The notes under the pieces were generated by a model. The model was not told where the DNA came from, did no database searches, and worked only from the letters and a program-made list of their open reading frames with translations. A program made the position numbers and the translations under genes. Source: Trueperaceae bacterium (lineage in GTDB: Bacteria > Deinococcota > Deinococci > Deinococcales > Trueperaceae). From it: 35,369 nucleotides of DNA. Each line of letters opens with the position of its first letter. The stretch's first letter is position 1. Location of the stretch: positions 1-35,369 of the forward strand of contig JASBUK010000005.1 in NCBI GenBank assembly GCA_030147925.1. Reading direction: 5' to 3'. This document shows positions 214 to 34,369 of this stretch, piece by piece.

Positions 214-726
214 ATGCCCAGGCCAAGACCCGCAGCACTCATAAGACTTGCTACTGTGCAAGACATTCCCGCGGTGCAAGCAGTAGCAAAAGCCTCCTGG
301 CATCACACTTATGAAGGCATACTCAGCAAGCAGGCGATCGAGCTGTTTTTGAGCCGGGCCTATAGCGAGTATTCTTTGCGCCAGACGTTAAATACTGGTG
401 GTCTGTTGGTGCTCGAGCAAAGCAAGCACGTTAGTGGCTACGCACGACTGAGCTTAAGTGATAACTTTGGCTTTGTAGGTGCAATTTATCTTTTGCCCGA
501 ACTGCAATCCCGGGGCTATGGACGCATGCTCTGGGAAGAAGCCCACAGTTGGTTTCGAGCCAGAGGGGTAAAAAAAATCAGCCTGACGGTAGCCGAAAAA
601 AACCACCGCGCCCGGGGTTTTTACCGCCATTTGGGTTTTGTCGAGGGTAGGTTGCGACAAACAAAAGTCGGCGGAGAACTAATTAGTGAGCTAAGTTGCC
701 ATTTGAATTTAAACAGCTCCGCCTAA
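214..726 (+). CDS. GNAT-family N-acetyltransferase
   Basis: This 170-residue protein has the GNAT fold signature. A beta strand (GFVGAIYLLPELQ, about residues 86-98) is followed by the acetyl-CoA pyrophosphate loop QSRGYGRML (Q-x-x-G-x-G/A), and the C-terminal half carries ENHRARGFYRHLGF, the usual motif B/C of the family. It should transfer an acetyl group from acetyl-CoA to an amine, but the substrate cannot be read from sequence. No clear Shine-Dalgarno precedes the ATG at 214, so the start is not certain; the AT-rich stretch just upstream could hold a -10 box. It stands alone between the IS256 fragment and doxX. High confidence in family, none in substrate. Confidence 0.85.
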   Translation: MPRPRPAALIRLATVQDIPAVQAVAKASWHHTYEGILSKQAIELFLSRAYSEYSLRQTLNTGGLLVLEQSKHVSGYARLSLSDNFGFVGAIYLLPELQSRGYGRMLWEEAHSWFRARGVKKISLTVAEKNHRARGFYRHLGFVEGRLRQTKVGGELISELSCHLNLNSSA

Positions 727-811
727 AGCCGTTTAAGTAAACTAAAAAGCCGTTCTCATAGTTTTTGTTGGGGTTTGTCACAACTTTGGCTGTTTTTGTG
801 AAAATCGCCAC

Positions 812-840
812 GTTACAAATTTATTCAGGACATTTGTAAC
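812..840. promoter_or_regulatory. Perfect 9-bp inverted repeat upstream of the doxX-like gene
   Basis: GTTACAAAT at 812-820 and ATTTGTAAC at 832-840 are exact reverse complements separated by 11 bases. The half-sites are 20 bp apart (about two helical turns), which fits a dimeric repressor or activator operator. It lies 62 bp upstream of the doxX ATG. A transcript hairpin is the alternative reading. The assignment to regulation is inferred. Confidence 0.45.
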
Positions 841-901
841 TGTTAGCAATTCCTTTATTAGAGGATGATGAATCAACGGAAAACGAAAGGAGAACTCTTA
901 A

Positions 902-32249: not shown

Positions 32250-32854
32250 AAGCCCCCAAGTCGCTCATGCACCAGTTGGAACTGGGGCGAGAGCTTAGTG
32301 ATAGCTGTGTACTCTGCGGGCTCGAGCACTACCAGGCCAAGCGCTATTTAGAAGGTGTTGCCAACGACGGCGTTAACAACATCCCGCTAAGACAGCGGCT
32401 GATGCGTCTGGGCGGCTATTGTCCGCGTCACTGTCTGGTCTTTGATGAGCTGACGCATTTGCTGTCCTCCGCCATACTGTTTGATGACTTTTTAAAAACT
32501 CGGCTGGCTCGAGCCGCTGCGGGCAAAAGGCCGCTGAACTTGCAGTGCGAAGCCTGCGCAGTGGAGCAAAAAACGCGTGACGCCCTTATGCAAAGCATCA
32601 AGCGCTACCGCCAGGATGCCGCTTTGCAAGAATTTTTACTAACAGCGCCGCTGTGCTTAAGCCATATTGAACAGCTTAGCCGGCAACTACCGGAGGCGGT
32701 GAGAAAACAGCTTATTGCCAAACATGACGGCCTGCTGAGCCGCTTAGCTGAGCTCATCCGCAAGCACGATTATCGCTTTAGTGACGAGAACATGACGCCC
32801 GAGGAAATAAAAAGCGTCAGGCAGGCCCTGACGCTTTTGGGCGTGCGGGAATAA
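32246..32854 (+). CDS. Cysteine-rich protein, DUF6062-like
   Basis: 202 residues starting at TTG 32246 inside the bshC stop region (4-nt overlap). It has paired Cys motifs: CVLCGLEHY (residues 21-24), YCPRHCLVF (near 58-62), CEACAVEQ (near 105-108) and APLCLSHIEQL (near 141-144). This spacing, CxxC then GxCxxH then CxxC then LCxxH, is what I recall of DUF6062-type proteins; it suggests metal or redox binding, perhaps two zinc sites. Function unknown. Tight coupling with bshC invites a thiol-redox role, by inference only. Its last 45 bases contain a terminator. Confidence 0.72.
   Translation: MKAPKSLMHQLELGRELSDSCVLCGLEHYQAKRYLEGVANDGVNNIPLRQRLMRLGGYCPRHCLVFDELTHLLSSAILFDDFLKTRLARAAAGKRPLNLQCEACAVEQKTRDALMQSIKRYRQDAALQEFLLTAPLCLSHIEQLSRQLPEAVRKQLIAKHDGLLSRLAELIRKHDYRFSDENMTPEEIKSVRQALTLLGVRE
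32810..32838. terminator. Bidirectional terminator inside a coding end
   Basis: AAAAGCGTCAGG (32810-32821) and CCTGACGCTTTT (32827-32838) form a perfect 12-bp stem with a 5-base loop, A-tract on one side and T-tract on the other. It lies within the last codons of the Cys-rich gene and 20 nt after the guaB stop on the minus strand, so it can serve both convergent genes. Confidence 0.8.
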
Positions 32855-32857
32855 AAG

Positions 32858-34369
32858 CTAACTGCGCCGACGCGACAGCGAGTAATTGGGCGCGTCTTTG
32901 GTAACGGTGATGTCATGCGGATGTGACTCTATTAAGCTAGCCTGAGTGACCCTGACAAACTGAGCACGCTCTTGCAGGGCGGCAATATCCGCCGTGCCGC
33001 AATAGCCCATGGCTGAACGCAAGCCGCCCACCATCTGATAGATAACGTCGGCCACCGGCCCCTTGTAAGCTACCATACCCTCAATTCCTTCCGGTACCAG
33101 CTTTTTGGCGTCTTCCTGAAAATAACGGTCGGCGCTACCACCGGACATCGCCCCTAGACTGCCCATGCCGCGATAGGCCTTATAACGCCTGCCATCGCGC
33201 AAAATATCTTCGCCCGGTGACTCGCTGGTTCCGGCCAGCATCGAACCGACCATCACGCAGTCGGCCCCGGCGGCAATGGCCTTGGGGACGTCGCCGGTAG
33301 CCTTGATGCCGCCATCGGCAATCACCGGCACGCCCGCTGTGTGGGCAAGCTTATATACATCTAGAATAGCCGTGAGCTGAGGCATGCCCACCCCGGTCAC
33401 TACCCGGGTGGTGCAAATACTGCCCGGGCCGATGCCTACTTTTACGGCGTCGGCGCCCCGCTCGATCAAATCCCTGGCGGCCTCGGCGGTGGCGATATTA
33501 CCAGCCAAAACATCAAGCTCAAAACTTTCCTTGAGATAACTTAGAGCATCGAGAATCCCCTGCGAATGACCATGGGCGCTATCTAAGACCAGAGCGTCCA
33601 CCCCGGCGTTTACCAGTGCCTGGGCTCGAGCCTCCAAGTCTTGCGAAACGCCCACGGCGGCAGCCACGCGTAATCTGCCCAACTCATCTTTAGCGGCATA
33701 GGGAAACTCCAGCTTTTTCATGATGTCTTTAATGGTGATTAAGCCGCGTAGCAAATAATCATCATCGACTACCAGCAGCTTTTCCACTTTGTGTCGCCGC
33801 AGGATGTCGCGGGCTTCTTCCAAGGTGGTTCCCACCGGCACGGTGATTAAATTTTCGCGGGTCATCAAGTCTTCAACCGGGCGGTTGTAATTGCTTTCAA
33901 AGCGCAGGTCCCGGTTGGTCAAAATGCCGACTAATTTGCCGTCACGCTCAACAATGGGAATGCCACTTATCTTGTATTCCCGCATGAGATCTTCGGCGTC
34001 TTGTAGCGTCGCGTTGCGGTGGAGCGTGATGGGGTCAACAATCATGCCTGCTTCGGAACGCTTGACCTTTAAGACCATTTCCGCTTGCTGCTCTACCGGC
34101 ATTTTTTTGTGCAACACGCCAATACCGCCTTGCCGGGCCAGGGCGATAGCCATCTGGGTTTCGGTTACGGTATCCATAGCCGCCGAAACGATGGGAGTAT
34201 TAAGCGCGATATTGCGCGAGAAACGCGTGGCGGTGTTTACTTCTTTGGGCAAGACCTCGGAGTGAGCTGGCACTAGCAAAACGTCGTCAAAGGTAAGTGC
34301 TTCACCGCGGAATTTCACCGGGCCTGACGTTGCGGTTTCTGTCTGTTGGTCTATAAGCTTTGTGCTCAT
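32858..34369 (-). CDS. guaB: IMP dehydrogenase
   Basis: Oxidises IMP to XMP with NAD, first step to GMP. 503 residues with the family layout: catalytic barrel split by a CBS pair (residues about 105-225: [37 protein letters not shown]). The nucleophile Cys is in [19 protein letters not shown] (about residue 318) and the flap in [19 protein letters not shown]. Works downstream of the pur genes of this window. A TATAAT box lies on the minus strand at 34432-34427. The leader ends in AAAGGTAGGTAAAAA before ATG 34369. Confidence 0.96.

Follow-up and report, generated by a model that had tools for sequence, protein, structure and literature searches.

Why does one short palindrome recur so often along a single stretch of bacterial DNA? 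The stretch analysed here (the window) comprises 35,369 nt and is contig C151 of the assembly of a Trueperaceae bacterium (G000; 2,982,247 bases, or 2.98 Mb, in 151 contigs). Its genes and both of its strands are dotted with the hexamer CTCGAG, most often in the extended form GCTCGAGC. A preliminary description of this DNA, made from its letters, had proposed a highly iterated palindrome (HIP) comparable to the cyanobacterial HIP1 but of different sequence. We find that the iterated palindrome is real and genome-wide, and that GCTCGAGC is a HIP-class motif outside the cyanobacteria, in a probable Trueperaceae genome (Deinococcota). For the PurL protein encoded in the window, the closest of the named genomes returned was a Trueperaceae metagenome-assembled genome (MAG; 73%), followed by a Deinococci MAG (67%).

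An iterated palindrome across the genome

A recount of the window gave exactly the figures listed earlier, namely 42 copies of CTCGAG, 33 of the octamer GCTCGAGC and 11 of the decamer GGCTCGAGCC, with all eleven decamer starts as first reported. An order-3 Markov model predicts 12.0, 2.3 and 0.16 copies, respectively. In an N-free sample of G000 amounting to 287 kb, the octamer was present 256 times against an expectation of 15.8, the highest ratio among octamers common enough to rank, and the next palindrome with six G+C bases had 16 copies. The order-3 test was run on the window and the sample, and the whole genome was compared by means of control words: CGAGCTCG, the letters of GCTCGAGC reversed, for the octamer, and GAGCTC for CTCGAG. 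Genome-wide, GCTCGAGC occurs 2625 times and its control 136 times; for CTCGAG and GAGCTC the counts are 3108 and 798. The octamer is found once per 1136 bp (880 per Mb, roughly one per gene), and its density in the window (33 in 35.4 kb) is similar to that of the genome (0.88 per kb). The excess therefore holds against a third-order model, the test named in the preliminary description, in window and sample, with the reversed word giving the same picture for the genome. One calculation speaks against an excess: a maximal-order Markov model, conditioned on heptamers, predicts 32.6 octamers in the window and leaves nothing to explain, because nearly every constituent heptamer already sits inside an octamer.

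The coding sequence could, in principle, generate such a word through codon or dipeptide bias alone. In 212 predicted genes of G000 (236 kb), every one of the 220 coding copies encodes Leu-Glu (142), Ala-Arg (56) or Ser-Ser (22), as any coding copy must. However, when synonymous codons were shuffled within genes, keeping the protein and the codon usage of each gene, 30 shuffles yielded a mean of 9.1 octamers and a maximum of 17. Each of the three reading phases was enriched, by 11- to 30-fold, relative to its shuffled level (4.8, 2.3 and 2.0, in the same order), and the control hexamer GAGCTC stayed near its own (65 vs 58). Codon or dipeptide bias is refuted by these shuffles and retains practically no probability as the cause, in agreement with the earlier view that codon bias alone does not explain the sites; enrichment through a few amino-acid pairs, named beforehand as a possible refutation, falls with it.

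The decamer, by contrast with the octamer, was not borne out as the unit of the motif. Around CTCGAG in G000 the base at −1 is G in 91% of cases, that at −2 is G in only 38%, and positions beyond that are barely informative; each flank varies independently of the other (both present 0.84, expected 0.82), and decamers make up 50 of the 256 sampled octamers. This profile rules out GGCTCGAGCC, and the unit is therefore GCTCGAGC, with a CTCGAG core. With exact octamers masked, variants at the outer base were enriched in G000 (A 2.2-fold, C 1.7-fold, T 1.2-fold), and inner-base variants were neutral or depleted (0.30–1.07). An inner C>A change at the second base departs from this pattern, being enriched 2.4-fold in G000 (14 copies) and 3.7-fold in the relative G001 (three copies). 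All three outer-base variants were enriched 3- to 15-fold in G001, G008 and G017, and the inner ones mostly were not, on small counts. Outside the octamer, CTCGAG lies below base-composition chance in G000 (483 vs about 732), unlike in G001, G017 and the CTCGAG-rich families, where the bare hexamer is also in excess. The preferred flank differs in G043, which favours CCTCGAGG, with C..G (67 vs 11.1 expected). In a sample of G008, 64 CTCGAG sites had an extended flank (G at −2 52%, A at −3 49%, T at −4 60%), unlike those of G000.

Octamers follow one another in G000 at a mean distance of about 1.1 kb with a coefficient of variation (CV) of 0.88, slightly more even than random. Across the window and the 16 sampled contigs that contain no N, their counts look evenly spread, as judged by eye, with a single exception (L097, on contig C130) that holds three octamers where 11.7 are expected. 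This octamer-poor contig was possibly acquired recently. Its first 8 kb contain, as judged by eye, sulfite/nitrite-reductase, cysH-like and siroheme genes, and no octamer lies before position 7580. Within the window, the longest stretch free of octamers is 18061–24321 (6.3 kb), which has one bare CTCGAG at 22358 and includes a gene resembling those of solute-binding proteins (by eye) at 20731–22524. All sites of the window are listed in Table 1.

Table 1. Copies of the palindrome in the window, from word counts; where an octamer lies within the decamer GGCTCGAGCC, the decamer start is given
Feature	Positions	Decamer start
GCTCGAGC octamer	411–418	
GCTCGAGC octamer	1102–1109	
GCTCGAGC octamer	2112–2119	
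CTCGAG core without G..C flank	2856–2861	
GCTCGAGC octamer	2867–2874	
CTCGAG core without G..C flank	4547–4552	
GCTCGAGC octamer	5518–5525	
CTCGAG core without G..C flank	5558–5563	
CTCGAG core without G..C flank	5797–5802	
GCTCGAGC octamer	7645–7652	
GCTCGAGC octamer	8044–8051	8043
GCTCGAGC octamer	10706–10713	
GCTCGAGC octamer	12981–12988	12980
GCTCGAGC octamer	13601–13608	
CTCGAG core without G..C flank	13805–13810	
GCTCGAGC octamer	14162–14169	14161
CTCGAG core without G..C flank	14204–14209	
GCTCGAGC octamer	14346–14353	
GCTCGAGC octamer	15160–15167	
GCTCGAGC octamer	15300–15307	
GCTCGAGC octamer	15372–15379	
CTCGAG core without G..C flank	15436–15441	
CTCGAG core without G..C flank	15471–15476	
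GCTCGAGC octamer	16403–16410	16402
GCTCGAGC octamer	16736–16743	
GCTCGAGC octamer	17015–17022	17014
GCTCGAGC octamer	17674–17681	
GCTCGAGC octamer	18053–18060	18052
CTCGAG core without G..C flank	22358–22363	
GCTCGAGC octamer	24322–24329	
GCTCGAGC octamer	25074–25081	25073
GCTCGAGC octamer	26077–26084	
GCTCGAGC octamer	26692–26699	
GCTCGAGC octamer	27307–27314	27306
GCTCGAGC octamer	29635–29642	
GCTCGAGC octamer	30278–30285	30277
GCTCGAGC octamer	30878–30885	
GCTCGAGC octamer	31103–31110	
GCTCGAGC octamer	31790–31797	
GCTCGAGC octamer	32320–32327	
GCTCGAGC octamer	32507–32514	32506
GCTCGAGC octamer	33624–33631	33623

Relatives and the conservation of sites

The palindrome is shared by many relatives (labelled G001–G120; the window's own family, f1, has 39 genomes including G000). 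Measured against base composition, CTCGAG topped the palindromic hexamers for enrichment in 21 of the 27 groups sampled, and in 24 it ranked at least second; in G003, G006 and G024 it lay outside the top four of that ranking. The richest genomes contain 5.9–7.7 copies per kb and 2–25 copies of GAGCTC per genome. In family f5 the CTCGAG/GAGCTC counts are 27159/15 (G042), 26619/4 (G046), 27118/9 (G050) and 28178/9 (G054), and in family f2 they are 21868/25 (G047) and 14690/2 (G051). Part of these high ratios arises because GAGCTC is avoided, and synonymous shuffling of four of the six genomes, those sampled, gave a CTCGAG excess of 5.6- to 10.7-fold. The samples of four of these six genomes lack several further palindromes too, as in genomes with many restriction systems. 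At the other end of the range, the ratio in genus g20 is about 0.7–1.8. Octamer excess by shuffling was 48-fold in L001 (eight copies), 19- to 40-fold in G001, G008, G017, G000 and G010, 19-fold in G047, 13-fold in G054 and 8-fold in G009, and the CV of spacing was 0.86 in G042 and 1.07 in G050. The HIP1-like excess is thus not a peculiarity of this genome, since many members of the order are enriched, some with a different flank.

In small samples, individual sites also persist in place. G017 and G001, which belong to one genus, have a common syntenic block of 15 kb with 72% nucleotide identity, in which 11 of 19 octamers are identical from G017 to G001 and 11 of 18 in the reverse direction; for other octamers of equal G+C the figures are 8.9% and 11.4% (Fisher's test, 1.5e-7 for G017 to G001). 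Where all overlapped amino acids are conserved, 9/9 and 9/13 octamers are identical; codon conservation elsewhere would predict 0.41 and 0.67 when only the bases of the motif are required to match. At conserved Leu-Glu pairs, CTCGAG is used by both genomes in 15 cases, by G017 only in eight, by G001 only in two and by neither in 16 (p=5.6e-4), which is more sharing of positions than independent gain would give; Ser-Ser pairs (p=0.08) and Ala/Ser/Pro/Thr-Arg pairs (p=0.06) go in the same direction. Between G000 and eight relatives, 49 octamer comparisons were possible, eight of them with conserved amino acids, and six of these eight are identical where 0.40 would be expected; the six came from only four of the relatives, and the sum over relatives is not one of independent trials, as G000 sites recur across them. 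Conservation at synonymous positions, which had been put forward as a check, is therefore found, on small samples. Two results run counter to it: a smaller first comparison of orthologs had only 3 of 21 octamers identical, and 43 of the 49 comparisons with G000 were non-identical, 41 of these with an amino-acid change. Conservation fits selection and biased repair alike, and the data do not separate these.

A solitary candidate methyltransferase

If the palindrome is a methylation target, G000 offers a single recognised solitary enzyme as its candidate writer. Scans with five Pfam families, including PF02384, PF07669, D12, PF01555 and PF00145, found one gamma-class DNA methyltransferase (PF02384, PF07669) and one D12 enzyme; neither PF01555 nor PF00145 (C5-cytosine) matched in these profile scans, which cover recognised families only. 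Next to the D12 gene is one for a nuclease of the NotI family (PF12183, E 4.4e-57), and the two look like an ordinary restriction pair. The nuclease gene lies directly before the methyltransferase gene (L424:1410–3178, contig C92). GGATCC is strongly avoided in G000 (6 vs 75 expected), and our guess is that it is the target of this pair.

The gamma-class protein (enzyme A; 558 aa) is encoded in a locus with dnaG on one side and V-ATPase genes on the other; no nuclease gene was recognised beside it in the 10 kb read. It contains the motifs DPSFGGG and NPPF and an M.Eco57I C-terminal domain, and its predicted structure (predicted local distance difference test, pLDDT, 87.6) is closest among solved folds to CamA, then to M.BseCI and M.TaqI. 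The S-adenosylmethionine (AdoMet) and NPPF motifs, the TaqI-like fold and the lack of an adjacent nuclease are those of a solitary gamma-class N6-adenine methyltransferase. CamA of Clostridioides difficile, the best whole-length structural match (template-modelling score 0.72–0.74, E 2e-23) at 16% sequence identity, is a conserved solitary adenine methyltransferase specific for CAAAAA, which is not palindromic. M.TaqI and M.BseCI have the NPP-aromatic catalytic motif and TCGA-containing targets; they are part of restriction systems, whereas enzyme A, with the same fold and motif, stands alone in a housekeeping locus. V-ATPase genes adjoin it in G000, G001, G005, G014, G016 and G017, representing five genera, and dnaG was seen in the flank of three; in G009, G012 and G021, the other carriers in f1, neither neighbour was seen. 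At the V-ATPase locus of G001 and G017, enzyme A is 34% identical and a flanking gene 82% identical, and the enzyme may have evolved fast or been replaced in place. A cluster of open reading frames (ORFs) near enzyme A in genus g25 was dropped as a partner gene, since most lie on the opposite strand inside the enzyme gene and were taken for shadow frames. No relative of the enzyme occurred in phage records.

The preliminary description had also suggested looking for a solitary methyltransferase of CTCGAG specificity. The solitary enzyme exists; we infer its specificity from the company that its relatives keep. CTCGAG is the recognition site of restriction-modification systems of the XhoI/PaeR7I type. 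Relatives of enzyme A occur in 84 plasmid records, and in 11 of 12 regions examined (chosen from 30) an ORF of 244–357 aa directly follows the methyltransferase; the twelfth has a second methylase. A profile of the 11 plasmid ORFs matched four XhoI nucleases over 96 columns (hhalign, 96.3%, E 1.7e-9 in a single pairwise comparison), including a shared N-x-x-N-R-x-E-E stretch. A second gamma family, B, adjoins a decayed XhoI gene in G012; at L282:4568–5283 that nuclease gene is split into two reading frames that overlap, and the gamma methyltransferase frame next to it is open. In g25, all 18 genomes carry exactly one full-length enzyme, A in 14 and B in four, as if either could stand in for the other; one of the A copies is interrupted by an internal stop and another matched in two pieces. 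On these three lines of evidence, enzyme A is probably specific for CTCGAG. G000 differs from XhoI/PaeR7I systems in that the site is enriched and no nuclease gene adjoins enzyme A, and a search for the XhoI nuclease family PF04555, not extended genome-wide to the plasmid-type nucleases, gave no match in G000. Family C, beta-class methyltransferases encoded next to XhoI nucleases, is found in G052, G069, G073 and G113, and relatives of it occur in G009 and G041; as an explanation for G000 it is ruled out by the missing PF01555 match. Although the four genomes first named carry an XhoI nuclease gene, CTCGAG is 1.8–4.8 times as frequent as GAGCTC in them, and the site is not obviously avoided.

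Whether enzyme A also drives the octamer excess is a question on which we stand evenly divided. The ratio of octamer to control in f1 is 1.3–51 in the 10 genomes with A or B and 0.64–2.5 in 28 without, to which G008 (38.8) must be added (p=1.6e-5). A series of observations weighs on the other side. Codon shuffling in the 15 f1 genomes sampled (10 with, five without) left a weak association, with p=0.22 for octamer counts and p=0.05 for the hexamer, and base composition may confound the relation. G005, G012, G014 and G016 carry A with an octamer excess of only 1.5- to 4.7-fold, the first three of them having 66–73% G+C and weak excess. G008 (92% completeness) combines a strong excess with no strong match to A or B. 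G092 and G099, outside f1, lack both and reach CTCGAG/GAGCTC ratios of 5.7 and 14. The six richest genomes (G042, G046, G047, G050, G051 and G054) likewise have no strong A or B match, the best being a B-like protein in G050 (195 bits, most of the model) and partial matches in G046 and G047, and at the loci examined no methyltransferase family is common to all very CTCGAG-rich genomes. G051 (58% complete; 7.7 CTCGAG per kb) had no match to the five methyltransferase families scanned. The plasmid evidence is also qualified, as scans of four plasmid ORFs against known nuclease families were weak or empty, and the alternation of A and B in g25 may reflect a single replacement.

Known palindromes and possible roles

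The accessible text of PMC4390886, a 2015 study of cyanobacteria, describes HIPs as palindromes of about 500–2500 copies per Mb, most of them with a G+C content of 75% or more, with deviations at outer positions and a methyltransferase present, and calls the relation of HIPs to methyltransferases a mystery. On its counts in genome and sample, and relative to the next palindrome, GCTCGAGC is an outlier of this kind; its density falls in the range, six of its eight bases are G or C and, save for the one inner variant, its deviations are outermost, so that the proposal of a HIP1-like motif with a different sequence is supported. The methyltransferase would be enzyme A, which is plausibly, though not demonstrably, able to modify the sequence. 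HIP1 itself, GCGATCGC, is ruled out, having no copies in the window, and the lineage is not cyanobacterial. As portrayed in the same accessible text, HIP1 is likewise a G+C-rich palindrome found genome-wide about once per kb, with a six-base core and a preferred outer base at which deviations concentrate, and its core is not in excess outside the octamer. The differences lie in the sequence, the phylum, the 5–7.7 CTCGAG per kb reached by relatives and the enzymes: HIP1 genomes generally have GATC N6-methyladenine (m6A) and CGATCG 5-methylcytosine (m5C) enzymes, with a model built on m5C (PMC4390886, accessible text), whereas the only solitary candidate in G000 is an N6-adenine enzyme with a putative CTCGAG target and no C5-cytosine enzyme matched. 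Giant viruses are described in the accessible text of PMC7253447 as having solitary CTCGAG methyltransferases of both m6A and N4-methylcytosine (m4C) kinds, and CTCGAG marking has therefore arisen in unrelated enzyme classes; those enzymes are viral, and are likened to enzyme A here by their target, which is putative for enzyme A. Among the matches listed in a literature search (titles and the start of abstracts, with subscription papers mostly outside), there was no report of the GCTCGAGC motif or of a HIP in Deinococcota.

Our data are best explained, at about even probability, by a HIP-class palindrome that is marked by a solitary N6-adenine methyltransferase and held in place. Enzyme A, from the dnaG/V-ATPase locus, would methylate the core on both strands, probably as CTCG-m6A-G. 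Such marks, at about one per kb, would let a reader protein tell the old strand from the new once DNA has replicated, for example when mismatch repair has to discriminate between strands, or would serve it as some other label of the chromosome. New sites would then arise, and existing ones stay in place, through selection or through mark-biased repair. Strand discrimination after replication may be the likeliest role of the marks, and even so we regard it as doubtful; linkage of enzyme A to dnaG is a weak hint in that direction.

Three other accounts compete with a methylation mark. The palindrome may be the binding site of a putative protein for chromosome organisation, repair or segregation, with the methyltransferase an occasional modifier, and lineages would therefore keep sites without A or B. 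The very high CTCGAG density of G042, G046, G047, G051 and G054 without a strong match to either enzyme fits this account, as do the slightly even spacing in G000 and G042, though not in G050, and the conserved sites of G017 and G001; but the preferred flank shifts by lineage, from G..C in G000 to C..G in G043, and some relatives (G003, G024) have little excess, and we consider a binding site unlikely. In Elhai's model for HIP1, a ratchet with a set point of about one site per 1000 nt that needs a C methylated next to G (PMC4390886, accessible text), the palindrome would be a functionless by-product of repair or mutation biased by methylation or by sequence. The observed density, one site per 1136 bp, agrees with that set point, and the lack of CTCGAG excess outside the octamer and the enriched outer-base variants of G000 recall HIP1 as that text presents it. 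Yet no cytosine methyltransferase of the kind required was recognised in G000, and relatives with 5–7.7 CTCGAG per kb lie above the density at which the model saturates; were A the writer, the model would therefore have to be revised. A mere by-product seems rather improbable to us. Uptake signals of competent cells accumulate by transformation in Neisseria and the Pasteurellaceae, and the octamer could be one of these. The uptake signals known so far are longer words that are not palindromes, and the motif passes by degrees from the octamer to bare CTCGAG from one lineage to another, both of which make such an origin very improbable, although a density near one per kb and the use of all reading phases resemble uptake signals, and Deinococcus radiodurans is stated to be naturally competent in the accessible text of PMC7314969.

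Returning to the marked palindrome, we tentatively suggest, as something short of likely, that the order has a palindrome code of its own, apart from HIP1, with a CTCGAG core, lineage-specific flanks and up to about 28,000 copies, kept by selection as an adenine-methylation strand mark in presumed MutH-less bacteria. If this is true, HIPs would have arisen repeatedly as a solution and would not be an oddity of the cyanobacteria. A concrete candidate gene is at hand in the solitary adenine methyltransferase linked to dnaG, and relatives with and without the excess are available for comparison. A second, unrelated palindrome with HIP anatomy, in another phylum and with no recognised C5-cytosine enzyme, would put the published model to a direct test and suggest a principle that applies more generally.

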